A stretch of 53,063 nucleotides of DNA. It comes from Chloroflexota bacterium (GTDB taxonomy: Bacteria > Chloroflexota > Anaerolineae > Anaerolineales > Villigracilaceae). A program made the translations under genes and the position numbers. The first letter of the stretch is position 1, and each line of letters starts with the position of its first letter. The notes beneath the pieces were generated by a model, which did not search any database, was not told where the DNA came from, and saw nothing but the letters and a program-made list of their open reading frames with translations. Location of the stretch: contig QMIW01000020.1 of assembly GCA_024434165.1 (NCBI GenBank), positions 1 to 53,063 of the forward strand, read 5' to 3'. Shown piece after piece: positions 4,518 through 36,686 of the stretch.

Positions 4518-4547
4518 TTGACACATCTCATTCGGGGGGTGTAAACT
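4518..4547 (+). promoter_or_regulatory. Promoter of the ABC exporter leader
   Basis: TTGACA (4518-4523), an 18-base spacer, then TAAACT (4542-4547). Transcription would start near 4554, about 240 bases before the exporter gene. The leader contains a short ORF and a terminator. The RIO kinase leader at 24377-24406 has the same kind of promoter with the same spacer length. Confidence 0.75.
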
Positions 4548-4582
4548 CTGACCGCTGAACGAAAATCCTACAAAGAAAGGAG

Positions 4583-4718
4583 CGCACTCTTGATGAGCAA
4601 CACAATCTACTTCATCCTCCCTCCCGCTGCAGTTGGAAAATTGCCTTCTCGGAGTGCGTCTGTTGACCGAACCTAGGTCATCTTTTCTGTCCCTTATTGA
4701 TTTTGGGCTGTGGCGCAC
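4583..4718 (+). promoter_or_regulatory. Alternative RNA pairings of an attenuator
   Basis: Segment 1 CGCACTC (4583-4589) lies between the Shine-Dalgarno and ATG of the leader ORF. Segment 2 GAGTGCGTC (4652-4660) lies inside that ORF. Segment 3 GGCGCAC (4712-4718) is the 5' arm and loop of the terminator. Segment 2 can pair with segment 1 (7 bp) or, as GTGCGTC, with segment 3 (7 bp with one G-U). 1:2 pairing leaves the terminator intact; 2:3 pairing would break it. A ribosome held near the ORF start would favour 2:3 and readthrough into the exporter. This is inferred by hand and not folded. Confidence 0.5.
4593..4676 (+). CDS. Candidate 27-codon leader peptide upstream of ABC exporter
   Basis: ATG at 4593 follows a strong AAAGGAG (4576-4582). 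The peptide begins MSNTIYFILPPA and ends SVDRT before a TAG at 4674. It lies between a near-consensus promoter and an intrinsic terminator, and it contains sequence (GAGTGCG, 4652-4658) that can pair either with CGCACTC just before its own ATG or with the terminator. Pro-Pro-Ala at codons 10-12 is a potential ribosome pause. The evidence is positional and structural; homology could not be tested. Confidence 0.6.
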   Translation: MSNTIYFILPPAAVGKLPSRSASVDRT

Positions 4719-4739
4719 GCGCCGCAGCCTTTTTGTTTT
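4706..4739 (+). terminator. Intrinsic terminator (attenuator) before ABC exporter
   Basis: GGCTGTGGCG, loop CACG, CGCCGCAGCC (10-bp stem with one G-U pair) followed by TTTTTGTTTT. It stands between the leader ORF and the ABC exporter gene that starts at 4796, in the sense direction, so it would block the exporter unless overcome. Confidence 0.85.
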
Positions 4740-4795: not shown

Positions 4796-6634
4796 ATGAA
4801 CTCATCAACAACCACCTCTCAATACTTCGACTTCCGCAATGCGCTGCACAAGAACCGCCTCGCCGGTTTGTGGCGCATGATGACGGACTTCCGCGTTTCG
4901 TATATCGCGGCGACGATTTCGCTTGCCGTCTCCGCGCTGGCAAAGACCTCTGTGTATCTTCTTCTGCGCTTTTTTGCAGACGACGTGCTGGAACAGGGCA
5001 AAACGCTCGGCGCCACGATGACCCAGACCTTTCTGTGGATCGGGCTGGGATTCATCCTGCTCGCCTTTATCGAAGGCGGCGGCGCGTTCCTTTCGGGACG
5101 TTTAGCCGCCTACACCGCCGAAGGCATCACCCGACGATTGAGAGATTTCCTCTTCGACCACATCCAGCGGTTGAGTTTCTCATACCACAGCCAGACGCCG
5201 ACAGGCGACCTGATCGAGCGCGTCACTTCGGATGTGGACGCCCTGCGCCGATTCTTCTCGGAGCAAGCCATCGGCGTCGGCAGAATCGTATTGCTCTTCT
5301 TCATCAACTGGGCGGCGATTCTCTACATCAACACCAAACTGGGATGGATTTCCGTCGTCACCATGCCGTTGATTCTGTGGGTTTCGTTGTGGTTCTTCAA
5401 AAGAGTGACCAAAGCCTACGAAGACTACCAGGCGCAGGAAGCGGTGCTTTCCACTACCTTGCAGGAAAACCTGACCGGCGTGCGCGTGGTCAAAGCCTTT
5501 GCCCGGCAGGATTACGAGATGAAGAAATTCGAGAAGGATAACTGGCTGAAATACATCAAAGGCAAATTCCTGCTGTTGATGCACTCGCTGTTCTGGCCCC
5601 TCTCGGATATCGTCCTCGGCGGGCAGATGCTGTTCGGTTTCATCTACGCCGCCTTTATGGCGATCAATGGTGAAATTTCTGTCGGCGACTTTGTGGCTTA
5701 TACCGGCTTGCTCATCTGGCTGATCTTCCCAATCCGCAACCTGGGGCGCGTGATCGTGCAGGCTTCGACCGGTATGGTCTCGTATCAGCGCCTGATGGAC
5801 ATCGTCAAACAGGAGCGTGAGGATCTGCTGGGGGGCAGAGTCCAGCCGGCGGGTGCGGTGCGGGGCGAGATCGAATTCCGAAACGTCTCGTTCATCTATT
5901 CGGATGGAACGCATCATGTCATCAAGGATATTTCGTTCCACATCCAGCCGGGGCAGTCCATTGCCCTGCTCGGTTCGACGGGATCGGGCAAGACCTCGCT
6001 GGTGAACCTGCTGCCGCGCTTCCACGATTACACGAGCGGGCAGATCCTGCTCGACGGAATCGAACTGCGCGATTACCCGCGCAAGTACCTGCGCGAGCAG
6101 ATCGGCATCGTGCAGCAGGAGCCGTTCCTGTTCAGCCGTTCGATCCGCGAGAATATTTTGTATGGTGTTGGAAGAAGCGTGACGCAGGAAGAGATCGAAG
6201 CCGCTGCGAAAGCCGCCGCCATCCACGACGTGATCATCGCATTCCCCGACGGATACAACACCATCGTCGGCGAGAAAGGCGTGACGCTCTCCGGCGGGCA
6301 GAAACAGCGCGTGACGATCGCGCGGACGATCCTCAAGAACCCGAAGATCCTCATCCTCGACGACTCGACCTCGGCGGTGGACACGGAGACCGAAGCAGCG
6401 ATCCGCCAGGCGCTGGACGACCTGATGGAAAATCGCACGACCTTCATCATCGCACACCGGATTCAATCCGTGATGAAAGCGGATCAGATCCTGGTGCTGG
6501 ATAAGGGTCAGGTCGTGCAGCACGGAACGCATGAAGAACTCGTCAGCCAGTATGGGAGTATGTACCGCAAGGTGTATGACATCCAGACGAGGATCGATGA
6601 AGAGTTGGAAATGGAAATTTCGCGCGCCAACTAA
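4796..6634 (+). CDS. ABC exporter half-transporter, degenerate-site subunit
   Basis: Type IV (MsbA-like) exporter: six-helix membrane domain at residues 1-330, then a nucleotide-binding domain with Walker A GSTGSGKTS (about 391), signature LSGGQKQR (about 497), Walker B ILILDDSTSAVD and H-loop IIAHR. The residue after the Walker B Asp is Asp where the catalytic Glu is normal. This marks the non-catalytic subunit of heterodimers such as TM287/288 or BmrCD. The partner is the gene at 7485, which has Glu there. The substrate is unknown; drugs or lipids are usual. The start at 4796 is chosen because GGGGGAGAAG precedes it; an upstream in-frame ATG at 4697 would cross the terminator. Confidence 0.93.
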   Translation: MNSSTTTSQYFDFRNALHKNRLAGLWRMMTDFRVSYIAATISLAVSALAKTSVYLLLRFFADDVLEQGKTLGATMTQTFLWIGLGFILLAFIEGGGAFLSGRLAAYTAEGITRRLRDFLFDHIQRLSFSYHSQTPTGDLIERVTSDVDALRRFFSEQAIGVGRIVLLFFINWAAILYINTKLGWISVVTMPLILWVSLWFFKRVTKAYEDYQAQEAVLSTTLQENLTGVRVVKAFARQDYEMKKFEKDNWLKYIKGKFLLLMHSLFWPLSDIVLGGQMLFGFIYAAFMAINGEISVGDFVAYTGLLIWLIFPIRNLGRVIVQASTGMVSYQRLMDIVKQEREDLLGGRVQPAGAVRGEIEFRNVSFIYSDGTHHVIKDISFHIQPGQSIALLGSTGSGKTSLVNLLPRFHDYTSGQILLDGIELRDYPRKYLREQIGIVQQEPFLFSRSIRENILYGVGRSVTQEEIEAAAKAAAIHDVIIAFPDGYNTIVGEKGVTLSGGQKQRVTIARTILKNPKILILDDSTSAVDTETEAAIRQALDDLMENRTTFIIAHRIQSVMKADQILVLDKGQVVQHGTHEELVSQYGSMYRKVYDIQTRIDEELEMEISRAN

Positions 6635-7426: not shown

Positions 7427-7484
7427 CAAGTGCGCGGGTCCGAGACTGTTGCTCCAGTAGAGCGACATGCAACGGAGATTTATT

Positions 7485-9362
7485 ATGAGCGAAGAACTCA
7501 TCGAACTCGAAGAAGAAGAACATACATCCAGCCTGACCGCGCCGGTGTTCTGGCGCATCCTGGGCGTCATCAAGCCGCACTGGAAGTGGGTGCTGGGATT
7601 CCTCGTCACCATCGGTCTGGTGTCGTCGCTGGACGCCTACTTCACTTACTTGAACAAACAGATCGTGGACCAGGGCATCAAATTCGGCGACCCGGTCGTG
7701 CTGACGCGCATTGCGTGGATCTACGGCTCGTTCCTGTTGCTGCAATCCGTGTTCGTGTTCACGTTCATCTACCTGGCAGGCGTGCTGGGCGAACGTGTGC
7801 AATACGACCTGCGCAAGATGCTCTTCAATCACCTGCAGAATCTGTCGCTTTCGTATTACGCCCAAAACGCGGTGGGACGCCTGATCGCGCGCGTCACGTC
7901 GGACACGGGGCGCGTCTCCGAACTCGTCACCTGGGGCATCGTGGACAGCGTGTGGGCGGTCATGAACATCGTCACCTCGCTGACCTTCATGGCGATTATC
8001 AACTGGCGGCTGGCGCTGATCGTCTCGGTCATCATCCCGGTCATGGTTTTTGTGGCGACGAAGTTCCAGAAATACATCCTGGTCGAGTTCCGCACCACCC
8101 GCCGCACGAACAGCCGCATCACGGGCGCGTACAACGAGAACATCCAGGGTGTGCGCGTGGTGAAAGCGCTCGGACGCGAAGACGCCAACCTTGCCGAATT
8201 CCAGGGGTTGACCACGAAGATGTATAGTGCATCCTACCGGGCGGCGTGGCTCTCGGCGCTCTTCCTCCCCACCGTGCAGATCATCGCCGCCTTTGCGCTG
8301 GGCGCCATCGTGTGGTATGGCGGCGTGCAGATCGAAACCGGACTCATCACCATCGGCGGGATTCAAGCCTTCGTCTCGTACCTGACCTTCATGATGTGGC
8401 CCGTGCAGGACCTGGCGCGCGTCTATGCCGAGACCCAGCACAGCATCGCTTCGGCTGAACGAATCTTCAAACTCGTAGACACCCAGCCCGAGGTCCATAA
8501 CCGAGCCGATGCAATCGAAGCGAAGACTCTGCTCGGTGAAATCGAGTTCGACCACGTGGACTTCTTCTACGAAGACCGCAAGCCCGTGCTGACCGACTTC
8601 ACGCTGAAGGTCAAGCCCGGGGAGATGATCGCGCTCGTCGGTCCGACGGGAGGCGGGAAGTCCACCATCGTGAACCTGCTGTGCCGCTTCTATGAGCCGC
8701 AGAACGGCGTCATCCGCATCAACGGCAGGGACTACACCGAGTACACGCTGGAATCCATCCACAAGCGCATCGGCATCGTGCTGCAAACGCCGCATCTCTT
8801 TTCGGGGACGGTGCGCGAGAACATCCGCTACGGCAAACTGGACGCGAGCGACGCCGAGGTGGAGGAAGCGGCAAGAATCGCCGGCGCGCACGATTTCATT
8901 GTGACGCTGGAAAAAGGCTACGAACAGAACGTGGGCGAAGGCGGGAACCTGCTCTCGGTGGGACAGAAGCAGTTGATCTCGCTGGCGCGCGCGGTGCTTG
9001 CCCGCCCGGAACTGTTCATCATGGACGAAGCCACGTCCTCGGTGGATACGCTGACCGAGGCGTTGATTCAAAAAGGCATGGAAGCGCTGATGCAGGGACG
9101 CACGTCGTTCGTCATCGCCCACCGCCTCTCGACCATCCGCCGCGCGAACCGGATTCTGGTGATCGAGAACGGGCGCATCGCCGAGCATGGCACGCACGCC
9201 GAACTGCTGCGCCAGCGCGGGCATTATTACCGCCTGTACACCCAGCAGTTCCGCCATGAACTGGAGGTGCAGTATGGGGTGGCGGACGAGAATGGCAATG
9301 AACGCGAGAATGTGACCGCGGATTCGATCCTGGTGAAACGGGATGCGGTGGCGGCGGATTGA
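7485..9362 (+). CDS. ABC exporter half-transporter, catalytic-site subunit
   Basis: Six-helix membrane domain and nucleotide-binding domain with Walker A GPTGGGKST, signature altered to LLSVGQKQL, Walker B LFIMDEATSSVDT with the normal catalytic Glu, and H-loop IAHRLSTIRR. The altered signature (LSVGQ for LSGGQ) completes the degenerate site formed with the partner at 4796, as in heterodimeric exporters. The N-terminus is rich in Glu (SEELIELEEEE). The start at 7485 follows CGGAGA; an upstream ATG at 7467 in the same frame has no better site. Confidence 0.93.
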   Translation: MSEELIELEEEEHTSSLTAPVFWRILGVIKPHWKWVLGFLVTIGLVSSLDAYFTYLNKQIVDQGIKFGDPVVLTRIAWIYGSFLLLQSVFVFTFIYLAGVLGERVQYDLRKMLFNHLQNLSLSYYAQNAVGRLIARVTSDTGRVSELVTWGIVDSVWAVMNIVTSLTFMAIINWRLALIVSVIIPVMVFVATKFQKYILVEFRTTRRTNSRITGAYNENIQGVRVVKALGREDANLAEFQGLTTKMYSASYRAAWLSALFLPTVQIIAAFALGAIVWYGGVQIETGLITIGGIQAFVSYLTFMMWPVQDLARVYAETQHSIASAERIFKLVDTQPEVHNRADAIEAKTLLGEIEFDHVDFFYEDRKPVLTDFTLKVKPGEMIALVGPTGGGKSTIVNLLCRFYEPQNGVIRINGRDYTEYTLESIHKRIGIVLQTPHLFSGTVRENIRYGKLDASDAEVEEAARIAGAHDFIVTLEKGYEQNVGEGGNLLSVGQKQLISLARAVLARPELFIMDEATSSVDTLTEALIQKGMEALMQGRTSFVIAHRLSTIRRANRILVIENGRIAEHGTHAELLRQRGHYYRLYTQQFRHELEVQYGVADENGNERENVTADSILVKRDAVAAD

Positions 9363-23095: not shown

Positions 23096-24109
23096 TTATT
23101 TCTCCTTCTCCCAGCGCTGGCGGTCTTTAGGCATATCGGGATCCAAATATTTCGGATGAACCTTCTCGAACACGCGGTGACCATGCGAAATCCACAAATC
23201 TGACGCAAGTTTTTGCGGATTACATGCCACCCCCTGCGCCGCGAAGTACTGACAGACGCGCGTCACATCGCGCTGGAAGATGCTCCACGAAGACGGGTTG
23301 GACTTCGGGATGACGACCTGCGGGAAGTCAATCAACTTGATGCCGCCGTCCCAATACAGGATGTTGTACGCTGAAAGGTCGCCGTGAACGCGGTCTTTCG
23401 AGAGCATGATGTCCATGTTTTGGATGACGCGCTCGAAGAGCGGTTTTGCTTCATCCCGCGCCAGGGCGATTTGACTGAGAGGCGGCGCAGGCGTCCCCCC
23501 ATCGCCGATGAACTCCATCAGGATGGCGTTTTTTTCTTTCGCGAACGGCTTGGGGACATCCGCGCCCGCCTTGTACAACATTTCCATTGTGACGAATTCA
23601 TACGCGATCCAGGATTGATGCCGCACCTCTTCGCCGTAACTGGTGCGCTTGATGATCGCATTGACGTCCGCTTCCTTCCACAGGGCTGTTCCATCCTCGT
23701 CCAGGTCCACGCGACCGACGCGGTACTGGGCATCGTTCTTGAGGCTGCGCAGCGAGCGCGGACGGTAGACCTTCGCGGCAAGCAGCGGCACATCCACGGC
23801 AGGACCCGGCTTGCAGAGATACACCGAGGCTTCCTTGCCAACCTTCACCTTTCGCATCACATCCGTGATCCAGCCGTGTGCGGCGATCTCTGCCAGGGAA
23901 TCCAGCAGCCAGACTTCCTCGAAGCGCGCGGCTTTGTAGGTGAATTTGAACTCCCGCGAAATCTCCTGCGCGCGGATGAATACCTTCGCATCCATCTCAC
24001 GCCGTTTCGATTCGCGCTTTTGTGCGACGCGCTTGTTACGCGGGCGGACGCCTCCGCCTTCCAAATCGTCGAGTTCCTCGAAATATTCGATATAGTCTTT
24101 CATATTCAT
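23096..24109 (-). CDS. RIO-family atypical protein kinase
   Basis: RIO1-like kinase fold. Visible parts are the shortened nucleotide loop GKEASVYLC, the ATP-anchoring Lys in AAKVYRPRSL, the catalytic HGDLSAYNIL and the metal-binding Asp in LIDFPQVV. Archaeal and eukaryotic RIO proteins mature ribosomes; the bacterial role is not established. The N-terminus is charged (EELDDLEGGGVRPRNKRV). The start at 24109 (or 24103) is chosen because AAGGTG precedes it and the family sequence begins there; the open frame extends upstream only through terminator sequence. The gene lies behind a 260-base attenuator-like leader. Confidence 0.9.
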   Translation of the reverse strand: MNMKDYIEYFEELDDLEGGGVRPRNKRVAQKRESKRREMDAKVFIRAQEISREFKFTYKAARFEEVWLLDSLAEIAAHGWITDVMRKVKVGKEASVYLCKPGPAVDVPLLAAKVYRPRSLRSLKNDAQYRVGRVDLDEDGTALWKEADVNAIIKRTSYGEEVRHQSWIAYEFVTMEMLYKAGADVPKPFAKEKNAILMEFIGDGGTPAPPLSQIALARDEAKPLFERVIQNMDIMLSKDRVHGDLSAYNILYWDGGIKLIDFPQVVIPKSNPSSWSIFQRDVTRVCQYFAAQGVACNPQKLASDLWISHGHRVFEKVHPKYLDPDMPKDRQRWEKEK

Positions 24110-24125: not shown

Positions 24126-24159
24126 AAAACAAAAACCACAGGAAACGACATTCCTGCGG
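24126..24159 (-). terminator. Second terminator (T2) in the RIO kinase leader
   Basis: On the minus strand CCGCAGGAA, a short loop and TTCCTGTGG (nine pairs with one G-U) are followed by TTTTTGTTTT. It ends only a few bases before the Shine-Dalgarno of the RIO gene. Its 5' arm CCGCAGG is identical to the 5' arm of terminator T1, so the 3' arm of T1 can pair with it. Confidence 0.8.
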
Positions 24160-24163
24160 TCGG

Positions 24164-24216
24164 GCGTAACGCGGGATTCATCTCGCGGGGGTGCGCAAAA
24201 TGAATTTTGCGGTACG
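24164..24216. repeat. GATTCAT/GCGGTAC family repeat, copy 2
   Basis: CGTAACGC (24164-24171) and GCGGTACG (24209-24216) form imperfect inverted ends, with GGGATTCATCTCGCG and the hairpin CGCAAAAT-GA-ATTTTGCG inside. It lies between the two terminators of the RIO kinase leader and may act as a structured spacer. Confidence 0.65.
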
Positions 24217-24221
24217 GAGAA

Positions 24222-24251
24222 TCAAAAACCGCAGGCGGAGCGCGCCTGCGG
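24222..24251 (-). terminator. First terminator (T1) in the RIO kinase leader
   Basis: On the minus strand CCGCAGGCG, loop CGCTC, CGCCTGCGG (nine perfect GC-rich pairs), then TTTTTGA. It starts 20 bases after the stop of the 21-codon leader ORF and points toward the RIO gene, so it would stop transcription before the kinase. Confidence 0.85.
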
Positions 24252-24301
24252 CCGGACTTCACCGAACGGTCTTATGCCAACTCATACGCAGGAGGCGCGC
24301 T
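24239..24301 (-). promoter_or_regulatory. Antiterminator pairing in the RIO kinase leader
   Basis: Within the leader ORF the minus-strand segment AGCGCGCCTCCTGCG (24301-24287) is complementary to the 5' arm and loop of T1: AGCGCGCCT pairs with AGGCGCGCT (24247-24239) over nine bases, and GCG with CGC after a three-base bulge. This would destroy T1 and free its 3' arm CCTGCGG (24235-24229) to pair with CCGCAGG of T2 (24159-24153), destroying T2 too. The segment encodes Ser-Ala-Pro-Pro-Ala. Confidence 0.65.
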
Positions 24302-24337
24302 GAACAAATCAACAGTGGTTACCAAGATGGCTTGCAT
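24272..24337 (-). CDS. Candidate 21-codon leader peptide upstream of RIO kinase
   Basis: ATG at 24337 follows AAAGGAGG at the right distance (about nine bases). The peptide begins MQAILVTTVDLF and contains SAPPAY before a TAA at 24274. The strong ribosome site, the promoter 40 bases upstream and the terminator just downstream make translation likely. Codons 13-17 form one strand of the proposed antiterminator. A Pro-Pro-Ala motif is shared with the leader ORF at 4593. Confidence 0.65.
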   Translation of the reverse strand: MQAILVTTVDLFSAPPAYELA

Positions 24338-24376
24338 ATTTTCGAGCCTCCTTTCGCGGAATGAGATGATGCAGTC

Positions 24377-24406
24377 ATTTTACTTCCGCAATTCGATTCG
24401 CGTCAA
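24377..24406 (-). promoter_or_regulatory. Promoter of the RIO kinase leader
   Basis: Minus strand TTGACG (24406-24401), an 18-base spacer, TAAAAT (24382-24377). The start site would be near 24370, giving a leader of about 260 bases before the RIO start codon. Confidence 0.75.
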
Positions 24407-24506: not shown

Positions 24507-25592
24507 TCATTTCACATGGCGGTCGAAGAATAACTGTGTCTTCGCCATGAACTGGAACCAGGGATCGCCGATGAAGGAATGTTCCTCACCCTGAAAAGCA
24601 AGGAGCTCCGCATCCACGCCCGCTGCGAGGAACGCCTCATACATCTTCTTCGACCACTCCGGCGGTGTACCGGCGGAGGTCTTGCCGTCTTCCGTGCCGT
24701 AGGCGATGAGGACCGGCGCGCTGACGGAATCGAAATGGTAAAGGGGTGAGACCGCTCTCAGCATAACAGGGTCAGCCGCCGCGTCGAAGTAGGAGGCGAT
24801 TAAATCGGGCGGCGAATCCAGCGGGAGGACGTCCGATGAGTTGCACCCGAGCGCGAGTTCGCCCTCGTAGACATCTCCGACACAGCCGGGTCCCCAGCGT
24901 TCGATGATGTCGGCAAAATCGGCGCTGACCGACGAATATAACACGGCGGCTTTGATGCGCGAATCAATCGTCAATACCTTCAAGGTCACGCCGCCGCCCA
25001 TGCTGTGTCCCCACACGCCGATGCGTTCGGGGTCCGCTTCGGGAATGGACGGGAGCGCGTTCATCAGATTGACGACGTCAATCGCCAGCCCGGAATAAAA
25101 CAAACTCTCGCCCGTCTCCGAACCGCCCCAGGTGCGATAATCCGACGAGACGGTGAGATAGCCGCGGCGGTTGAGAAATTCGGCGGCGCGGTCGGTGCCG
25201 TCGCCGGATGCGTAAACGTAACGCGAAAAGAATCCGTGATTGAGCACAATGACCGGGTAAGGCGGCTCGCCGGCGGTTGGGATTTGCAGGATGCCGGTGA
25301 CGGTCAAGCCGCCGCTCGGATATTCGATCAGATAACGGGTGAAGTGCGGCGATTCGAGCAGGGTCTCCCGAACGGTGATCTTGCCGCGCTCGAAATCGTG
25401 TTCGCGCAAACCTTCGATGGTGTATGGCTGCATCGCCTGTTCGGTGGTGCGCGTGGCAGTGGGCGGCGGGGTTTTGGTTGGGGTCGGCGTATCGGGGACA
25501 ACCGTCAGGACCAACTGCGGGGTCGTGAGCGATTCAGCAGGCTGGCAAGCCGAGGCGAGCAGTGCAAAAACAATGAACGCAATTCTCTTCAT
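24507..25592 (-). CDS. Secreted alpha/beta hydrolase lipoprotein
   Basis: Signal peptide with lipobox ASAC (about residue 16), a TPTPTKTPPP linker, then an alpha/beta-hydrolase domain: oxyanion region VIVLNHGF, nucleophile elbow GHSMGGG, acid in AYGTEDGK and His in GEEHSF. The family includes acyl hydrolases and dipeptidyl-peptidase-like enzymes; the substrate is unknown. It is closely related to the gene immediately upstream (shared YTIxGLRExxF, RAAEFLxRRGYxTVSxDYRTWGG) and so arose by tandem duplication. Confidence 0.9.
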   Translation of the reverse strand: MKRIAFIVFALLASACQPAESLTTPQLVLTVVPDTPTPTKTPPPTATRTTEQAMQPYTIEGLREHDFERGKITVRETLLESPHFTRYLIEYPSGGLTVTGILQIPTAGEPPYPVIVLNHGFFSRYVYASGDGTDRAAEFLNRRGYLTVSSDYRTWGGSETGESLFYSGLAIDVVNLMNALPSIPEADPERIGVWGHSMGGGVTLKVLTIDSRIKAAVLYSSVSADFADIIERWGPGCVGDVYEGELALGCNSSDVLPLDSPPDLIASYFDAAADPVMLRAVSPLYHFDSVSAPVLIAYGTEDGKTSAGTPPEWSKKMYEAFLAAGVDAELLAFQGEEHSFIGDPWFQFMAKTQLFFDRHVK

Positions 25593-25598
25593 GGGATG

Positions 25599-26732
25599 CT
25601 ACTTTAAATTCTCGTCGAAAAATGCGGCTGCCTGTTCCATAAACAGCGTCCACGCATCGCCGGTAAACGAATGACGCTGCCCCTCATACACAAACAACTC
25701 CGCGCTCACGCCCGCATCCAGCAGCGCCTGATGCAGTTTATACGACCACTCCGGCGGGGTCGAGCCGATGTAGTCGCCGTCGGCGGAACCGATATGGATT
25801 TGGACGGGTACGGAGATCGAATCCAGGTGGTAGTATGGAGCGATCTCGCGCATCCTTTCTGGACTTTGTGCCGATTCCACATAAGCGGCAATGACCTCCG
25901 CTGGCAGCGACTCGGGAATCACATCCGCCGAGTTGCAGGTATTCAGCAATTCACCCGCGGCGATCTCGCCGATGCAGCCATAGCCCCAGCGCGCGATCAA
26001 GTCGGCATCGTCTGCCGAGTTGGGCGCATACAACACCGCCGCGCGGACAAGGGTCTCGATACGCTCTTCGCTGTCATTCAAGGCAACTCCGCCCTGAATG
26101 ACAAGAACTTTTGTGGTAATGCCCCCGCCCATGCTGTGACCCCACATCCCAACGCGGGATGTATCCGCCTGCGGGATGGAATCCAGCGAGGCAAGCAGGT
26201 TCATCACATCTGCTACCAAGCCCGTATGAAAGAACGAAGGACCGAGGTCCGAGCCGCCCCAAGTGCGGTAATCCGGCGAAACGGTGATGTACCCGCGCCG
26301 GGTCAGGAATTCCGCCGCGCGCTGGGAGCCGTCGCCTGAGGAATACTGGCTGCGCGGGTAAAAGCCGTGATTCATGACGATCACGGGAAAAGGTCCCTCC
26401 CCTGCCGGGAGGTTCAACACCCCCGTGATACGCAAGCCGTCCGATGGATAGGAAATCAAATAGGTGCTGAACTGGTCATTGAGGGCGATGCGTACATCCA
26501 ATGAAATCCCGCCGCCTGAAAATTCCCGTTCCCGCAAACCCGCGATGGTGTACGGGTACATCAGATGCGGCAGCGGCGTGGGCGTCGGTGCGGCGGTGGA
26601 GGTTGGGGTGAAGGCGGGCGTTGCGGCGGGAGAGATGATCGTAACAATGGGCGGTGGAAGGGTCGAGGTTAGCGCAGGTGCGGGAGCGGAACAGGCGGAA
26701 ATCAAAAATGCGAAAACCAGCAGGCGTTTCAT
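25599..26732 (-). CDS. Secreted alpha/beta hydrolase lipoprotein, paralogue
   Basis: Same architecture as its neighbour: lipobox ISAC, a Thr/Pro linker and a hydrolase domain with nucleophile GHSMGGG, acid in IGSADGD and His in GQRHSF. The gene ends seven bases before the neighbour starts, so they form one transcript. It carries a short insertion after the nucleophile strand (GGVALNDSEERIETLV) that the other lacks. The start at 26732 is chosen because it opens on the signal peptide MKRLLVFAFLISAC; the frame is open further upstream without family sequence. Confidence 0.9.
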   Translation of the reverse strand: MKRLLVFAFLISACSAPAPALTSTLPPPIVTIISPAATPAFTPTSTAAPTPTPLPHLMYPYTIAGLREREFSGGGISLDVRIALNDQFSTYLISYPSDGLRITGVLNLPAGEGPFPVIVMNHGFYPRSQYSSGDGSQRAAEFLTRRGYITVSPDYRTWGGSDLGPSFFHTGLVADVMNLLASLDSIPQADTSRVGMWGHSMGGGITTKVLVIQGGVALNDSEERIETLVRAAVLYAPNSADDADLIARWGYGCIGEIAAGELLNTCNSADVIPESLPAEVIAAYVESAQSPERMREIAPYYHLDSISVPVQIHIGSADGDYIGSTPPEWSYKLHQALLDAGVSAELFVYEGQRHSFTGDAWTLFMEQAAAFFDENLK

Positions 26733-27006
26733 GAAGGATATTTTACTGTAAGCCGCTCCACCGCTCCTTTTCGCCACCGAAAGAATGAAGCAAAAATATT
26801 CTATGCGTGTGACAAACGTTGTCCCTAACAAACGCACCGGGAAATACGAAATTCATTTAGGGAGAGTGCTCGAAGTAAAAAACTGGGATCGGAGAAAGGA
26901 ATGCCCAAGAAATGACGTGCCCGCTCGGAGGCTTCTTCGTGCGGGGGCAATACTTGCCATCATGACCACATTGGAAAAGCAAAAATGACTCTCGAAAATG
27001 GGGGAT
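26733..27006. other. Intergenic region without a supported gene
   Basis: A 67-codon plus-strand ORF (26785-26988) and a minus-strand ORF ending in it are open, but neither has a family pattern. A partial stem, GTGCCCGC with GCGGGGGCA, lies at 26918-26953. AAAGGAATGCCCAAGAAATGA near 26896 is only a three-codon ORF. Nothing here can be named. Confidence 0.4.
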
Positions 27007-31447: not shown

Positions 31448-33241
31448 TCACTCCTGAAAACCCGTCCTGTACAACTCGTAGTAGCGTCCCTTTAATTCGA
31501 GCAGTTCAGCGTGCCGTCCCTGCTCGACGATTCTTCCACCGTCAATGACGACAATTTTATCAGCATTCGTAATCGTGGACAGGCGGTGCGCGATGACAAA
31601 TGAAGTGCGTCCTTTCAGCAGGGCTGCCAGCGCCGACTGGATCACATGTTCGGTCTGTGTATCCACGGATGATGTCGCTTCGTCCAATATCAAAATGCGC
31701 GGATTTGCCAGCAGCGCACGCGCAAACGAAATCAACTGGCGCTGACCGACACTCAAGGTCGCGCCGCCCTCCTCCACTGAAGTTTCGTAACCGTTCTTCA
31801 TATTGACGATGAAGTCATGCGCACCGACGGCTTTTGCGGCGGCGACCACTTCGTCATCCGTGGCGTCGAGCCTGCCGAATAAGATATTTTCCTTCACAGT
31901 GCCATTGAACAGGAACGGGTCTTGCAGCACCATGCCCATCTGCCGCCGCAGACTTTGCTGAGTCACCGTCCGCAAGTCAACGCCGTCTACGAGCACGCAG
32001 CCCTCCGTCGGGTCGTGGAAGCGCGCCAACAGTTTGACGATGGTCGTTTTGCCGGCGCCGGTCTCGCCGACGAGGGCTACCGTCTCACCGGGTTTTACAT
32101 CCAGATTGATTCGGTCGAGGACAAGCGCCGGGTCGTCGGAGTAATGGAACGAGACATTTTCGAATCGGACTGCGCCGGTAATTGCTCCCATTTCCCGGGC
32201 ATTTTCCTCGTCCCGAACTTCGATTGGCGTTTTGAGCAATTCAAGGATGCGTTCGCCGCCCGCCATCGTGGATTGAAGCGTATCGAAGCGGCGGCTCAAA
32301 TCGCGGATCGGCTCGAAGAAGCGGTCTATGTAAAGGATAAAGGCAATCAACACGCCCGCCGTGATGGATTCACCGAGAACGGCTGTGCCGCCCACATAAA
32401 CCACAAGCGCGGCTGCCAGCGCGCCAAGCACGTCAATGACCGGCGTAAACAGGGATGCAACCCGTGCGGCGTCGAGACTGGTTTCGAGAAAATAGCGGTT
32501 GACATAGCCGCTGAAGGTCTCGTGGTTTCTCCGCTGGCGCGAAAACGCCTGCACCACACGCACCCCGTTGACGTTTTCCGCGAGGACGGAGTTCGTCCAT
32601 GAAACGGCAGCGCGCACTTTGCGATAATTCCTGCGCGCCGCCTTACGGAAGAGCACCGTCGCCCAGATCATCACCGGCAGGACGGTAAACGTCAGCAGGG
32701 AGAGCTTGAAGTTCAGCGCCAGCATGGCAGCCAGCGTGCCGATGATGCCGAGCAAATTGCGCACAATCGCCAGCACCGCCCAGGTGATGAATTCGCGCAG
32801 CGTTCCCACGTCGTTGATGACGCGCGTAATGACGCGCCCCACGCTGTAACGGTTATAAAAACTCAGCGAAAGTTTTTGCAGGTGGGCGAACATGGCGGTA
32901 CGCACGTCGTACAAAACATGCTGACCCACGCGCGCCATGATGCGCACGCGCCAGTAGTTGAATCCCAGCTGGACGATGGAGACAAGCAGATAAACCAGGA
33001 CGATGCTCCGCAAGGCGGCGGCGTCACCGGCGTTGATGCCCTCGTCAATGGCGAGCTTGACAAAATACGGTCCGGAGACCGAGGCGGCGGTGACGATCGT
33101 CATCAGCACCAGCGCAAAGAGCATCCGTCCGTAATACGGCTTGAGGAATTGCATCAATCCCTGGGCAACCCTGGGATCGTAGCCTTTGTCCAGCTGCTCT
33201 TCGGAGTGGGTAATGAAGGCGGGAGGAACGATTTTGGTCAT
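31448..33241 (-). CDS. ABC exporter half-transporter, catalytic-site subunit (second pair)
   Basis: Six-helix membrane domain and nucleotide-binding domain with Walker A GETGAGKTT, signature LSVGQRQL, Walker B ILILDEATSSVDT with catalytic Glu and H-loop IAHRLSTI. It matches the subunit at 7485 in having LSVGQ and Glu. Its partner is the gene just upstream at 33311-35134. The substrate is unknown. Confidence 0.93.
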   Translation of the reverse strand: MTKIVPPAFITHSEEQLDKGYDPRVAQGLMQFLKPYYGRMLFALVLMTIVTAASVSGPYFVKLAIDEGINAGDAAALRSIVLVYLLVSIVQLGFNYWRVRIMARVGQHVLYDVRTAMFAHLQKLSLSFYNRYSVGRVITRVINDVGTLREFITWAVLAIVRNLLGIIGTLAAMLALNFKLSLLTFTVLPVMIWATVLFRKAARRNYRKVRAAVSWTNSVLAENVNGVRVVQAFSRQRRNHETFSGYVNRYFLETSLDAARVASLFTPVIDVLGALAAALVVYVGGTAVLGESITAGVLIAFILYIDRFFEPIRDLSRRFDTLQSTMAGGERILELLKTPIEVRDEENAREMGAITGAVRFENVSFHYSDDPALVLDRINLDVKPGETVALVGETGAGKTTIVKLLARFHDPTEGCVLVDGVDLRTVTQQSLRRQMGMVLQDPFLFNGTVKENILFGRLDATDDEVVAAAKAVGAHDFIVNMKNGYETSVEEGGATLSVGQRQLISFARALLANPRILILDEATSSVDTQTEHVIQSALAALLKGRTSFVIAHRLSTITNADKIVVIDGGRIVEQGRHAELLELKGRYYELYRTGFQE

Positions 33242-33310
33242 GGCGTCGAGTAGGTACTTGATTTGGTAGTCGCGTGGTAGGATGTCCGGGTGATTTGCTC
33301 AATGCAGCAG

Positions 33311-35134
33311 TCATCCCGAATTCGACCTGCCCGCGATGATGGTGTTTTCGTGTTGAGGCTTCTCGGCTCGGATGGGTTCAACCACTGCCTCTTCGTATTC
33401 AGAGCCATCGCGCTGCATCAATTGCAGGTCGTGGATTTCCCTGTACAAGCCGCCTCTGGCAAGCAGTTCATTGTGCGTACCGCGTTCCACAATCTGCCCC
33501 TTATCCATTACCAGGATCACATCCGCCCGGCGGACGGTGCTGAGGCGGTGGGCGATTACAAAGGTGGTGCGTCCTTCCATCAGAACATCGAGCGCGGCTT
33601 GAATCAACTTCTCGGTTTGGGTATCCACACTGGAGAGCGAATCGTCCAGGATCAAAATGCGCGGGTCCATCAGCAGGGCGCGGGCAATCGCCACCCGCTG
33701 GCGCTGCCCGCCGGAGAGGGTTACGCCGCGCTCGCCGACGATGGTCTCGTATCCCTTTGTGAAACTTTCGATAAACTCATGCGCCTGCGCGGCTTTGGCG
33801 GCGGCGATGATCTCTTCATCGCTTGCATCGGGGCGCCCATAGGCGATGTTCGCCTTGATCGTATCGGAGAACAACAGCGAAGTCTGCAAGACAATGCCGA
33901 TCTGCCTGCGCAGCGAAGTCAACTCCACATCGCGCACATCGTAGTCATCCACCAGCACGGCTCCGTCGGTCGCATCGTAAAAGCGGGGGATCAAATTCAC
34001 CAGCGAGGTTTTGCCCGACCCGGTCGGTCCGATCAACGCCACAATCTGGTTCTGTTTCACCCGCAGGCTGATGCCGGTCAACGAACTGACCTTTTCATCC
34101 TGATATTTCAACGAAACGTTTCGGAACTCGACTTCGCCTCTCAAATTGGATAAAACCACCGCATCCTTTTTGGACCGGATGGCTGGTTCCGTATCCAAAA
34201 CCTCGAACACCCTTTGAGCGCCCGCAGCGGCTTCGCCGCCCGCGTTGACCAGCCCGGTCAATGCCTGGGCGGGTTCCGCCATCATCAACAGGTAGGCGTT
34301 GAACGCGACGACTGCGCCGACGGTCAGCGTGCCGTCCATTGCCATTTGCCCGCCAAAGAACAAAATCAGAATCGTGCCGAGAGTGATGAGCCAGTTGGTG
34401 GCGGGCATAATTTTCGCCCATTCGTCAATGACGTGCAGCCATTTGACGAAGACATCCCTGTTGGCGGTGTCGAAGCGGCGGATTTCGTAGTCCTCCCGTG
34501 CAAACGCTCGCACCACCTGTACACCGGTCACGTTTTCCTGCAGGCGGTTGGAGACTTCGCCCACCGCCGTATCCACGGCGAAGAATAACTTGCCGATCTT
34601 CGTGCCGAAACCGGCGGTCATCAGGATCAGGGGCAGCATGGGCAGGAGGGAAACAAGCGCGAGTTTGAGGTTGGCAGAGACCATTACAGCGATAATGCCA
34701 ACGGTCAACAACACGAAACGGACGAGTTCCGGGATGGACGAGCCCGCAAAACGTTCGATGGCGCGCACATCTTCGATGCAGCGCGAAATCAACTGACCGG
34801 ACTGGGCGTGGTCGTGGTACGCGAACGGCAGGTACTGGATGTGGTCGTACATGCGGTTGCGAAGATCGTAGCCAACGTGCGCCGCAACCCACTCCGAGCC
34901 GTACCGGTTGCCCATGCCAAGAAGCGCCGAGGCGAGCCCAAGCCCGAGGAGCAGAAGCGCGGAGCGAATCAAATGGGAGGCATCGCCGCGCAGGAGCCCG
35001 TTGTCAATCACATCCTGGATGATGCGCGGCACGAACAGATTCAAGCCGGTGAGGGTCAACAACATCGCAAGCGTGGCGGTCACCTGCCATGTGTACGGTT
35101 TGAGAAAAGCGGCAGCGCGAAACAGATTTTTCAT
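33311..35134 (-). CDS. ABC exporter half-transporter, degenerate-site subunit (second pair)
   Basis: Walker A GPTGSGKTS, signature LSGGQRQR, Walker B ILILDDSLSSVDT with Asp in place of the catalytic Glu, H-loop IAHRLSTVRR. It resembles the subunit at 4796 in each of these. It therefore forms a heterodimer with the gene 69 bases downstream. The start at 35134 (MKNLFRAAAFLKPY) is chosen because it matches the family N-terminus; the open frame upstream crosses the terminator at 35161-35189. Confidence 0.92.
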   Translation of the reverse strand: MKNLFRAAAFLKPYTWQVTATLAMLLTLTGLNLFVPRIIQDVIDNGLLRGDASHLIRSALLLLGLGLASALLGMGNRYGSEWVAAHVGYDLRNRMYDHIQYLPFAYHDHAQSGQLISRCIEDVRAIERFAGSSIPELVRFVLLTVGIIAVMVSANLKLALVSLLPMLPLILMTAGFGTKIGKLFFAVDTAVGEVSNRLQENVTGVQVVRAFAREDYEIRRFDTANRDVFVKWLHVIDEWAKIMPATNWLITLGTILILFFGGQMAMDGTLTVGAVVAFNAYLLMMAEPAQALTGLVNAGGEAAAGAQRVFEVLDTEPAIRSKKDAVVLSNLRGEVEFRNVSLKYQDEKVSSLTGISLRVKQNQIVALIGPTGSGKTSLVNLIPRFYDATDGAVLVDDYDVRDVELTSLRRQIGIVLQTSLLFSDTIKANIAYGRPDASDEEIIAAAKAAQAHEFIESFTKGYETIVGERGVTLSGGQRQRVAIARALLMDPRILILDDSLSSVDTQTEKLIQAALDVLMEGRTTFVIAHRLSTVRRADVILVMDKGQIVERGTHNELLARGGLYREIHDLQLMQRDGSEYEEAVVEPIRAEKPQHENTIIAGRSNSG

Positions 35135-35156
35135 AAGCGGGGCAATAAGGATACCA

Positions 35157-35189
35157 CAAACAAAAAGCGGACATCCAGTGGATGTCCGC
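35157..35189 (-). terminator. Terminator of the acyltransferase gene
   Basis: GCGGACATCCA and its complement TGGATGTCCGC (35167-35189) make a 10- to 11-bp stem; on the minus strand TTTTTGTTT follows. It lies seven bases after the stop of the acyltransferase gene and 23 bases before the ABC exporter start, so it separates two transcripts. Confidence 0.85.
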
Positions 35190-35195
35190 GCCGAA

Positions 35196-36686
35196 TCAGG
35201 CGGGTAACGGGTCGGGTTTGTAGAGCTTGAACGCCCGCAAAGCAAACCGCACCAAAAGGGACAATCCAAGCACGATCAGCCAGTCGTAAATAAAAACACT
35301 GCGCGGGAAGTTCTCGAACCGACCCGTGAAGTAGCCGATGTACGCTGCAGCGGCAACCGCCAGCGAACCGATGGTTACGGAAAGGACGACAGGACGCACC
35401 ATGTGCAGGATACCTTTTTGGAAATTTTCAGGACGGAAGGCGCCGAGAAAGTACGAAACCAGAGGACGAATGAAAAATGCCGCCCAGAAGACCACCCGTT
35501 CCATTTCGCGGTAGGACTGATACTCGCGCCCTTCGCCGAAGCGCAAACGGAACACCAGAAAGGCGGAAAGCGTGAGGATGGCAAGATCGAGCAGGAGTGT
35601 CCTCATGCTGATGCGCTGGAGAAAGCTTTTCAACCATCTCCGCAATGGAATATCCACATAGAAATGAACGAGCAAGCCAATGGCAATCATCATCGGCAGG
35701 AACGTCCGTTGCAGGAAAGCGAACGGGTCGGCAATGGCGGAACCCTGCAGGGCACGTTCATAAAACCAGACCACCGGCACATGCAGAATGTAAATCGCGT
35801 ACGCCGTTTCACCCAGGTTCACAAAGACGGAGCGGTTGAGGACCTGCGAAAGACGGGAGCGGTCCATTGCCAGCGAAACGATGAACAAAATCAACAACGG
35901 CGCCAGCAAACCCGCCATCGGCTGAAGATTGTGCGGCAAAGCCGGGAACACTTCGGCGCTTATCACCGCGTAGCCTGCCACAAGAAGAATACTCGCCGCC
36001 AGAACGGCGAGAACGACCCAGGGTTTCAGGTTCTGGTTTCGCCCCTCCCGCAGGTACCAAATCCCGCCGACGACGCCCATCACAAAGGAATTCAAATGGA
36101 AGACCGGCGAATAGATGAGGAACTCCTTTTGCTCGGGGTAAAAACCCGTCCACAATGTGAAGTGAACCGCCTGGCTCAACGCCCACAGGGCAATCGAAAC
36201 CCAGATCAATTTTTTCATCGGCTGGCGATACGCCCACATCACCATGAATGGAAAAAGGGCGTAGAAGAAGAACTCAACCGTCATGGACCAGGCCGCATAA
36301 TTAAAGGATTGCGAGTAGGCGGGAATCCAAGCCTGGACGACGAAGATATTGGCAAGGATTTTCTGGGGCTTGATCCTCAGGAGGGAGTCGAAATAATACA
36401 CACACATCAGGGAGAACGAGATGATATACAGCGGGTAGATTCGTGTGAAGCGTGCCCGCCAATACCCCATCACGTCGAACTTCTCGCCGGGTTTGTAATA
36501 CACCAGCGACATGACGAACCCCGAAAGCACATACAGGTAACTGACGGCGATCGGTCCGGACCGAATCAACGCCGAAAACGGGAAGAAATCCACAAAGTTG
36601 GTGTAGAACCTGCTGGTGTCATGGTAGAACAATACAAGCATCACCATGGCAAAGCGGGTGAATGTCAATTGATCGAGCCGTTTCAT
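35196..36686 (-). CDS. Acyltransferase-3 family membrane protein
   Basis: About ten to twelve membrane segments with the family motifs near the N-terminus: LDQLTFTRFAMVMLVLFYHD (the His is the likely catalytic residue), YVLSGFVMS and RARFTRIYPLY. The family acylates surface sugars, peptidoglycan or lipids using acyl-CoA. It has extra C-terminal membrane segments (RPLVSYFLGAF onward), so it is longer (496) than the usual 350-400 residues. No sugar-synthesis genes flank it. GAGGT precedes the ATG. Confidence 0.88.
   Translation of the reverse strand: MKRLDQLTFTRFAMVMLVLFYHDTSRFYTNFVDFFPFSALIRSGPIAVSYLYVLSGFVMSLVYYKPGEKFDVMGYWRARFTRIYPLYIISFSLMCVYYFDSLLRIKPQKILANIFVVQAWIPAYSQSFNYAAWSMTVEFFFYALFPFMVMWAYRQPMKKLIWVSIALWALSQAVHFTLWTGFYPEQKEFLIYSPVFHLNSFVMGVVGGIWYLREGRNQNLKPWVVLAVLAASILLVAGYAVISAEVFPALPHNLQPMAGLLAPLLILFIVSLAMDRSRLSQVLNRSVFVNLGETAYAIYILHVPVVWFYERALQGSAIADPFAFLQRTFLPMMIAIGLLVHFYVDIPLRRWLKSFLQRISMRTLLLDLAILTLSAFLVFRLRFGEGREYQSYREMERVVFWAAFFIRPLVSYFLGAFRPENFQKGILHMVRPVVLSVTIGSLAVAAAAYIGYFTGRFENFPRSVFIYDWLIVLGLSLLVRFALRAFKLYKPDPLPA

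Follow-up and report, generated by a model that had tools for sequence, protein, structure and literature searches.

A candidate ribosome-sensing transcription attenuator in the leader of a RIO kinase gene of Anaerolineae

The leader of the RIO kinase gene

The window analysed here, a stretch of 53,063 nucleotides from a Chloroflexota genome (Anaerolineales, family Villigracilaceae; contig QMIW01000020.1), carries on its minus strand a gene for a RIO1-family kinase (23096-24109, ATG at 24109). Its product matches the Pfam family RIO1 (PF01163, E=4e-34), and the nearest solved structures are those of archaeal Rio1 kinases (12ez and 1zp9, E=6e-22). Downstream of the kinase gene lies an MttB-family gene (PF06253; 21578-22999, minus strand), and at three other loci (L092, L099 and L104) a gene whose N-terminus seems to be alike stands behind RIO (cluster c9). 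Two tandem alpha/beta hydrolase genes (24507-26837, minus strand) lie immediately upstream of the RIO leader.

The leader, read along the minus strand, begins with a sigma-70-type promoter, TTGACG-N18-TAAAAT (24377-24406; TTGACG at 24406-24401 and TAAAAT at 24382-24377), followed by a Shine-Dalgarno (SD) sequence, AAAGGAGGCTCG (24343-24354, with the SD core AAAGGAGG at 24354-24347), and a 21-codon open reading frame, MQAILVTTVDLFSAPPAYELA (24272-24337). Beyond the ORF come a predicted intrinsic terminator, T1, formed by CCGCAGGCGCGCTCCGCCTGCGG and a TTTTT run (24229-24251), a second terminator, T2, of the form CCGCAGG...CCTGTGG followed by TTTTTG (24136-24159), which is an optional part of the arrangement, and finally the SD sequence of the RIO gene, AAGGTG (24125-24120). 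An earlier note on this DNA had listed these minus-strand elements (promoter, SD, ORF, T1, T2 and RIO SD), and every one of them is present where it had been placed. Also confirmed are the two complementarities on which that note relied, namely a nine-base match between the ORF and T1 (AGCGCGCCT with AGGCGCGCT, nine contiguous pairs) and a seven-base match between the 3' arm of T1 and the 5' arm of T2.

The region as a whole (24370-24100) folds with an energy of -103.3 kcal/mol, which corresponds to z=-5.63 against 200 shuffles. In a 4-kb scan, promoter-like sites (2, against 1.9 expected from shuffles) and terminator-like sites (4, against 4.5) showed no excess, so that the support for these parts of the window comes from conservation. 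No Rfam family reached its gathering score in the window or in nine loci with homologous leaders; the sole sub-threshold match, to a snoRNA on the opposite strand (E=4.1), was set aside.

Three segments of the leader are predicted to compete for one another. Arm A, GGAGGC(T)CG (24351-24343), consists of the SD and the bases that follow it, and would be the 5' strand of an anti-antiterminator. Arm B, AGCGCGCCTCC (24291-24301), lies within the ORF and has either A or C as its partner, and arm C, AGGCGCGCT (24239-24247), comprises the 5' arm and loop of T1 and is a nine-nucleotide complement of B. The A:B helix joins GGAGGC (24351-24346) to GCCTCC (24296-24291), with an additional CG:CG (6+2 pairs), and is already present in the minimum-energy fold of the window leader; B:C comprises nine pairs. 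The two pairings of B, with A and with C, exclude each other, and C is also one half of T1: judged from sequence, A, B, C and T1 have the layout of an anti-antiterminator, an antiterminator and a terminator with mutually exclusive arms. The complementarity of the ORF to the SD region and to the 5' arm of T1 jointly exceeds that of ORFs shuffled at constant composition (p~0.005). The earlier proposal of an ORF-containing attenuator in front of RIO, working through pairing of the ORF with the 5' arm of T1, is supported and extends to relatives, but it had overlooked the SD:B arm, by virtue of which the switch would respond to ribosome position.

Conservation and distribution of the leader

The RIO gene occurs in 39 of 57 genomes of the genus, and 36 of these 39 have the leader upstream; at the other three loci (L012, L013/L040 and L029), the contig ends first. 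The ORF and the paired arms, on whose presence in relatives the earlier note had made its reading depend, are kept in these 36 congeneric genomes. All 36 leaders have T1, and the stretch of ORF ahead of the Ala-Pro codons varies in length among them by whole codons only. Eight have an extra ORF between leader and RIO, and the one examined (L019) is SnoaL-like. When these leaders (35 distinct sequences) were aligned with plain MAFFT, 90% of B:C cells were paired and nine were changed on both sides, a value that none of 500 shuffles reached. A:B was paired in 97.9% of cells, with changes that were not above shuffles (181 of 500 as high) because the SD hardly varies.

Greater divergence is available in an alignment of 100 leaders, made up of 29 RIO leaders of the genus, 56 further loci of the genus or family and 15 loci from a class-level search, one of which (L144) belongs to the same family as the window genome; L002, L005, L006, L010, L019, L021, L036, L082, L086, L089, L114 and L138 were excluded. 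Covariation was assessed against a tree-based null, a parsimony reshuffle written for this analysis that follows the approach of R-scape but is not that program, with 2000 simulations. Cells with compensatory changes on both sides numbered 24 in A:B, against a null mean of 6.0 (p=0.0055), a signal that depends on divergent leaders, for whose alignment the model used itself includes A:B, and 31 in B:C, against a null mean of 9.5 (p=0.006). Canonical pairs filled 757 of 800 cells in A:B and 626 of 700 in B:C; their share alone did not differ significantly from the tree null (p=0.077 and p=0.088, respectively) because many columns hardly vary. Sliding the helices by one to three bases reduced canonical cells to 139-548, although two-sided cells still numbered as many as 19 in a slid A:B register and 16 in a slid B:C register. 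By the G statistic, single pairs above the tree null were A5:B-2 (p=0.007), A8:B-5 (p=0.008), B-3:C3 (p=0.024), B-5:C5 (p=0.037) and A4:B-1 (p=0.046), and the remaining pairs of the two helices showed no clear excess over it.

The position shared by all three arms (A5/B-2/C2) reads C/G/C in 62 of the 100 leaders and U/A/U in six, and in three further leaders it reads U/A/C, which leaves A:B intact and B:C broken. Leaders from the class-level search, among them L149, L141, L145 and L150, retain both A:B and B:C with different letters: B and C are AAUACACC and GGUGUAUU in L149, GCUGCGCC and GGUGCAGC in L141, and CAUGCGCC and GGUGCAUG in L145. B:C is weak in the model register in others, for example L097, L122, L126, L129 and L142. 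Joint complementarity of the ORF to A and to C was significant (p<0.05, ORF composition shuffles) in every one of the 100 leaders, with A:ORF significant by itself in 85 and ORF:C in 62.

The remaining parts recur with similar regularity. A promoter matching at least 9 of 12 positions was present in 84 of 100 leaders, against 157 of 2000 shuffles, and all 100 possess a short, presumably translated ORF with a good ribosome-binding site between promoter and terminator. This ORF is open through B in 100 of 100, a figure slightly inflated by the choice of start codon, which preferred ATG and then an ORF crossing B; it starts with ATG in 99 and stops 1-32 nt past B. Between the ORF stop and T1, a small hairpin with changing letters (e.g., AACGACTTAAGTCGTT) is found in L014, L016, L019, L020, L023, L024, L028 and L031 and is absent from many other leaders; it is possibly an RNA polymerase pause hairpin. 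Outside the family, a strict scan of 19 RIO loci (L159-L177) recovered SD, ORF and terminator together in eight and no terminator in the other 11; the joint complementarity test gave p<0.05 (uncorrected) in seven of those eight, the exception being L167 (p=0.114).

The element is neither confined to RIO genes nor present only once per genome. A second copy, which the earlier note had not picked up, lies on the plus strand of the window (4556-4738; E=1.1e-9 with R3, a covariance model of the class subtype), with a promoter TTGACA-N18-TAAACT (4518-4547), an SD AAAGGAG (4576-4582), arm A GCGCACTCT (4582-4590), a 27-codon ORF MSNTIYFILPPAAVGKLPSRSASVDRT (4593-4676), arm B GGAGTGCGTC (4651-4660) and arm C GGCGCAC (4712-4718), the last within a terminator of 11 pairs (4705-4730). 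Its complementarity is significant jointly (p=0.010) and for A:B alone (p=0.020), with p=0.34 for B:C alone. Behind it stands an ABC exporter gene (4796-6634, plus strand), and another follows at 7467-9362 on the same strand, both with Pfam ABC_membrane and ABC_tran domains. A third copy, which belonged to the R3 training set, is found in the same genome on contig C96 (4496-4682; L178 1501-1687), where it precedes an ABC exporter gene truncated by the end of the contig. The window also holds a further ABC exporter gene pair (31448-35269, minus strand), at which an R3 search (E up to 0.01) found no copy of the leader.

Covariance model R1 gave matches in 45 of 57 genomes of the genus and 89 of 152 of the family, and model R2 in 39 of 396 genomes of the class. 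The R2 training alignment held 92 of 96 leaders, leaving out a duplicate (L006) and L086, L089 and L114 as poorly matching or degenerate. L086 (G043) and L089 (G054), which precede a DrrA-type ABC operon, have the SD altered to GGGGAT and a B that pairs poorly, and look like decaying or changed versions. R3 had at least one match in 140 of 152 family genomes, and in 116 of the 140 there were between two and seven; across the phylum it matched 38 of 400 genomes, of which 34 belong to the class of the window genome and four lie outside it (E of 1e-4 to 1e-3); the match-free genomes of the phylum serve as a rough control of specificity. Two antisense matches, in L004 and L005, were set aside as terminator palindromes. 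Among R3 loci outside every training set, 30 of 32 passed the joint complementarity test, as did 27 for A:B alone and 15 for B:C alone, the A:B figure being partly so by construction since R3 contains A:B and not B:C.

Could all of this be ordinary tandem terminators, or a small RNA, with an ORF and pairings that are incidental? The frequency of promoter- and terminator-like sites in shuffled 4-kb sequence, equal to that observed, would be in keeping with this, but an ORF that runs through B in all 100 leaders, compensatory changes in both helices and R3 matches in 140 of 152 family genomes all argue against it, and we disfavour it as very improbable indeed.

Target genes were read at fetched loci only, comprising 60 loci (L071-L130) from the longer R1 match lists and the R3 loci, with classes assigned from BLAST clusters of which representatives alone were compared with Pfam and NCBIfam. 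The first gene at the 60 loci was a RIO kinase in 29 and an ABC-2 operon of a DrrA-like ATPase and ABC2_membrane_6 permeases in 15; there followed a RIO-like paralogue, an M24 aminopeptidase and an MsbA-like exporter (three each), an alpha/beta hydrolase (two), a GNAT followed by RIO (one), RsgA (one) and an uncertain TetR/ABC assignment (one), with two fragments holding no gene. RIO kinases are thus the commonest target among the R1 and R2 loci read. The R3 loci fetched add ABC exporters of other types, GNAT pairs and RsgA again, so that RsgA stands behind the element in two genera of the family (L129 720-1907 and L192 1962-2807); their GNATs remotely resemble ribosomal-protein-S5 and aminoglycoside acetyltransferases, with scores that fall short of the curated cut-offs. 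Control specific to RIO kinases is not supported, given the ABC, GNAT, RsgA, M24 peptidase and hydrolase genes that come first at other loci.

Leader peptide, second terminator and proposed switch

Attention had been drawn in the earlier note to a Ser-Ala-Pro-Pro stretch that the window ORF encodes at B, and its emphasis proved misplaced. B is read in the Ala-Pro frame in 94 of the 100 leaders and in another frame in six; the core GCGCC persists in five of these six, and in L149, the remaining one, both A:B and B:C are fully paired with other letters. In L020, L026, L031 and L033 the second Pro is replaced by Leu or Ser, and B still pairs with A by way of G.U. Upstream of B, codons are under no detectable amino-acid constraint: 35 close pairs of leaders differ by 33 synonymous and 103 nonsynonymous changes (p=0.86), a synonymous share of 0.243 where 0.281 is expected. 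Inspection by eye of the leader peptides found no shared run of control codons of the trp/his type, and with a B that changes frame and unconstrained codons before it there is no conserved arrest motif of the SecM or RAPP kind. Because frame changes and Pro replacements leave the pairing in place, the conserved Ser-Ala-Pro-Pro is best understood as a by-product of the sequence of RNA segment B.

These observations bear directly on whether a nascent Ser-Ala-Pro-Pro might stall the ribosome, in a manner dependent on EF-P or an antibiotic, and so set the switch. Translation is known to slow at Pro-Pro preceded by Ala, and the Ala-Pro reading of B in 94 of 100 leaders accords with arrest of this kind; however, the six frame-shifted leaders with their pairing core or full pairing kept, the four replacements of the second Pro with B:A pairing maintained, and the free variation of the preceding codons do not, and a ribosome sitting on B would hide the very segment that has to pair. 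We regard an arrest peptide as quite improbable. The leader ORF would instead be, in all likelihood, a track that reports ribosome movement, with the peptide not itself the signal.

A second element of the earlier reading was a relay, in which pairing of the ORF with the 5' arm of T1 would free the 3' arm of T1 to disarm T2, both terminators then being decided together. The pairing that this calls for can form: of the 43 leaders (among 100) in which T2 is detected, 34 have a 7/7 match between the 5' arm of T2 and the 3' arm of T1, and among the 43 this pairing is stronger than the stem of T2 itself in 21, equal in 11 and weaker in 11. Its advantage in the 21 arises usually through a G.U pair in T2 (CCTGTGG), which is suggestive, and the divergent L147 retains the T1/T2 match despite a changed stem. 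But no T2 is detectable in 57 of 100 leaders, so the relay is not the core of the attenuator; T1 and T2 have the same stem in most T2-bearing leaders, which makes their match automatic; and among the six T2-bearing leaders from the class-level search, only L147 reaches at least 6/7. What survives is the possibility of an optional T1-to-T2 relay, and we consider it doubtful that the device works in this way.

We therefore return to the three arms, and place at about 0.7 the probability that the RIO leader is a ribosome-sensing transcription attenuator that turns on when early elongation is blocked. We are highly confident of the three-arm attenuator itself and moderately so of its signal and direction. 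From what we infer of ORF translation, of the direction of the response, of the signal and of steric exclusion of A:B by a ribosome lying between the arms, the leader would work as follows. When A:B forms, C would be left free, T1 would fold and transcription would stop. A ribosome held anywhere in roughly the first eight codons would cover A, or sit between A and B, and so block A:B; B, as it emerges, would then pair with C and pre-empt T1, letting RNA polymerase enter the RIO gene. With no ribosome loaded, A:B would form and transcription would terminate, and a free-running ribosome would cover B and depart, upon which A:B would re-form, again with termination. RIO, and elsewhere ABC exporters, GNATs, RsgA and other targets, would thus be induced by a block of early elongation, for which ribosome-targeting antibiotics or a comparable stress are the likeliest cause.

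A finished T1 hairpin should outcompete B:C at equilibrium, so that the switch must act kinetically. Transcripts of the 100 leaders that end before the 3' arm of T1 exists were folded with ribosome footprints masked in silico. The predicted probability of B:C exceeded 0.5 in 37 of 100 leaders when free, in 79 with the start region masked, in 52 with a codon-5 footprint, in 28 with a ribosome at the stop codon and in none with B covered. That of A:B exceeded 0.5 in 48 free leaders and in 34 with the codon-5 footprint alone masked. For the window leader itself the test is equivocal, the predicted B:C probability being 0.14 without any mask, 0.44 once the start region is masked and 0.99 when a ribosome is parked on the stop codon; given this last value, a ribosome waiting at the stop codon of this leader may also give read-through.

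In a further alternative, a second ribosome, or a 30S subunit, would settle on the SD as B emerges behind the first ribosome, so that the leader would report re-initiation or the supply of free small subunits. The SD in arm A (AAAGGAGG), besides taking part in the switch, is almost perfectly complementary to the anti-SD, and in 69 of 100 leaders the distance from the end of B to the stop is 14 or 17 nt, so that B would be close to exposure by the time the first ribosome terminates. RsgA, a GTPase of 30S assembly, is among the targets, and so are RIO kinases, which have eukaryotic relatives that function in maturation of the small subunit. Many other targets, however, are ABC exporters and GNATs, which fit antibiotic stress better, and we hold a sensor of ribosome supply to be unlikely, preferring an attenuator that responds to blocked early elongation.

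Relation to known attenuators and biological meaning

The trp and his leader attenuators operate by a 1:2, 2:3, 3:4 pairing logic and carry a run of control codons for the regulating amino acid. The RIO leader has the same predicted pairing logic without the control-codon run, and, unlike them, appears to sense general ribosome position rather than one amino acid.

Further parallels come from leaders linked to antibiotics. For vmlR of Bacillus subtilis, ribosomes held by antibiotic on an upstream ORF prevent an anti-antiterminator and allow read-through (PMC9226507), and the two leaders have in common an upstream ORF, an anti-antiterminator, an antiterminator and an intrinsic terminator, here predicted from sequence. 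They differ in that the upstream ORF of vmlR has three codons and its SD is single-stranded ahead of the anti-antiterminator hairpin, whereas the RIO leader uses the SD itself as the 5' arm and has an ORF of about 20 codons; phylum and targets differ as well (PMC9226507). The rli80 leader of hflXr in Listeria likewise has an ORF overlapping the anti-antiterminator, three alternative structures and a ribosome-associated target, but its ORF of 14 codons contains an RLR macrolide-arrest motif, whereas RIO-type leaders have no conserved peptide motif before B (PMC6310831). With bmrB/bmrCD of B. subtilis the element would share ribosome-mediated attenuation, an ABC exporter target and a predicted succession of anti-antiterminator, antiterminator and terminator; bmrB is a 53-codon leader gene, described there for a single locus, in contrast to a family of elements with many kinds of target in Anaerolineae (PMC4191407). 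The toiL leader of topAI in E. coli would be similar in being a general upstream-ORF sensor of several antibiotic classes, but it controls translation and Rho-dependent termination (PMC12121999), unlike the intrinsic terminator of the RIO leader.

In these reports, ribosome-sensing leaders are single cases, mostly from Firmicutes and linked to antibiotic resistance (PMC4191407, PMC6310831, PMC12121999, PMC9226507). ABC exporters, GNATs and ribosome factors are kinds of target known to be under such attenuation. What differs from vmlR, rli80 and bmrB is that the SD itself is the predicted arm of the anti-antiterminator, and that one design is repeated over many targets. Among the literature matches listed, all from open-licence papers, there was no attenuator for a RIO kinase and no such element in Chloroflexota, nor, among the matches listed, an established role for a bacterial RIO kinase. 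The RIO leader and its homologues are best read as a new family of translation-stress attenuators, with a presumed signal and direction of response.

It is conceivable, at a little under even odds in our judgement, that Anaerolineae possess a translation-stress regulon without a shared protein regulator, held together by a copied cis-acting RNA switch, and that RIO is a ribosome-protection or repair factor made only when ribosomes are blocked. If so, the regulon would span RIO kinases, the 30S factor RsgA, GNATs, drug exporters, an aminopeptidase and hydrolases. The leader groups the bacterial RIO kinase with drug exporters, acetyltransferases and RsgA, and its role thereby becomes testable: whether it is made upon ribosome blockage, and whether it protects ribosomes. 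More broadly, one design, with the ribosome-binding site as a predicted switch arm, recurs across a family of Anaerolineae.
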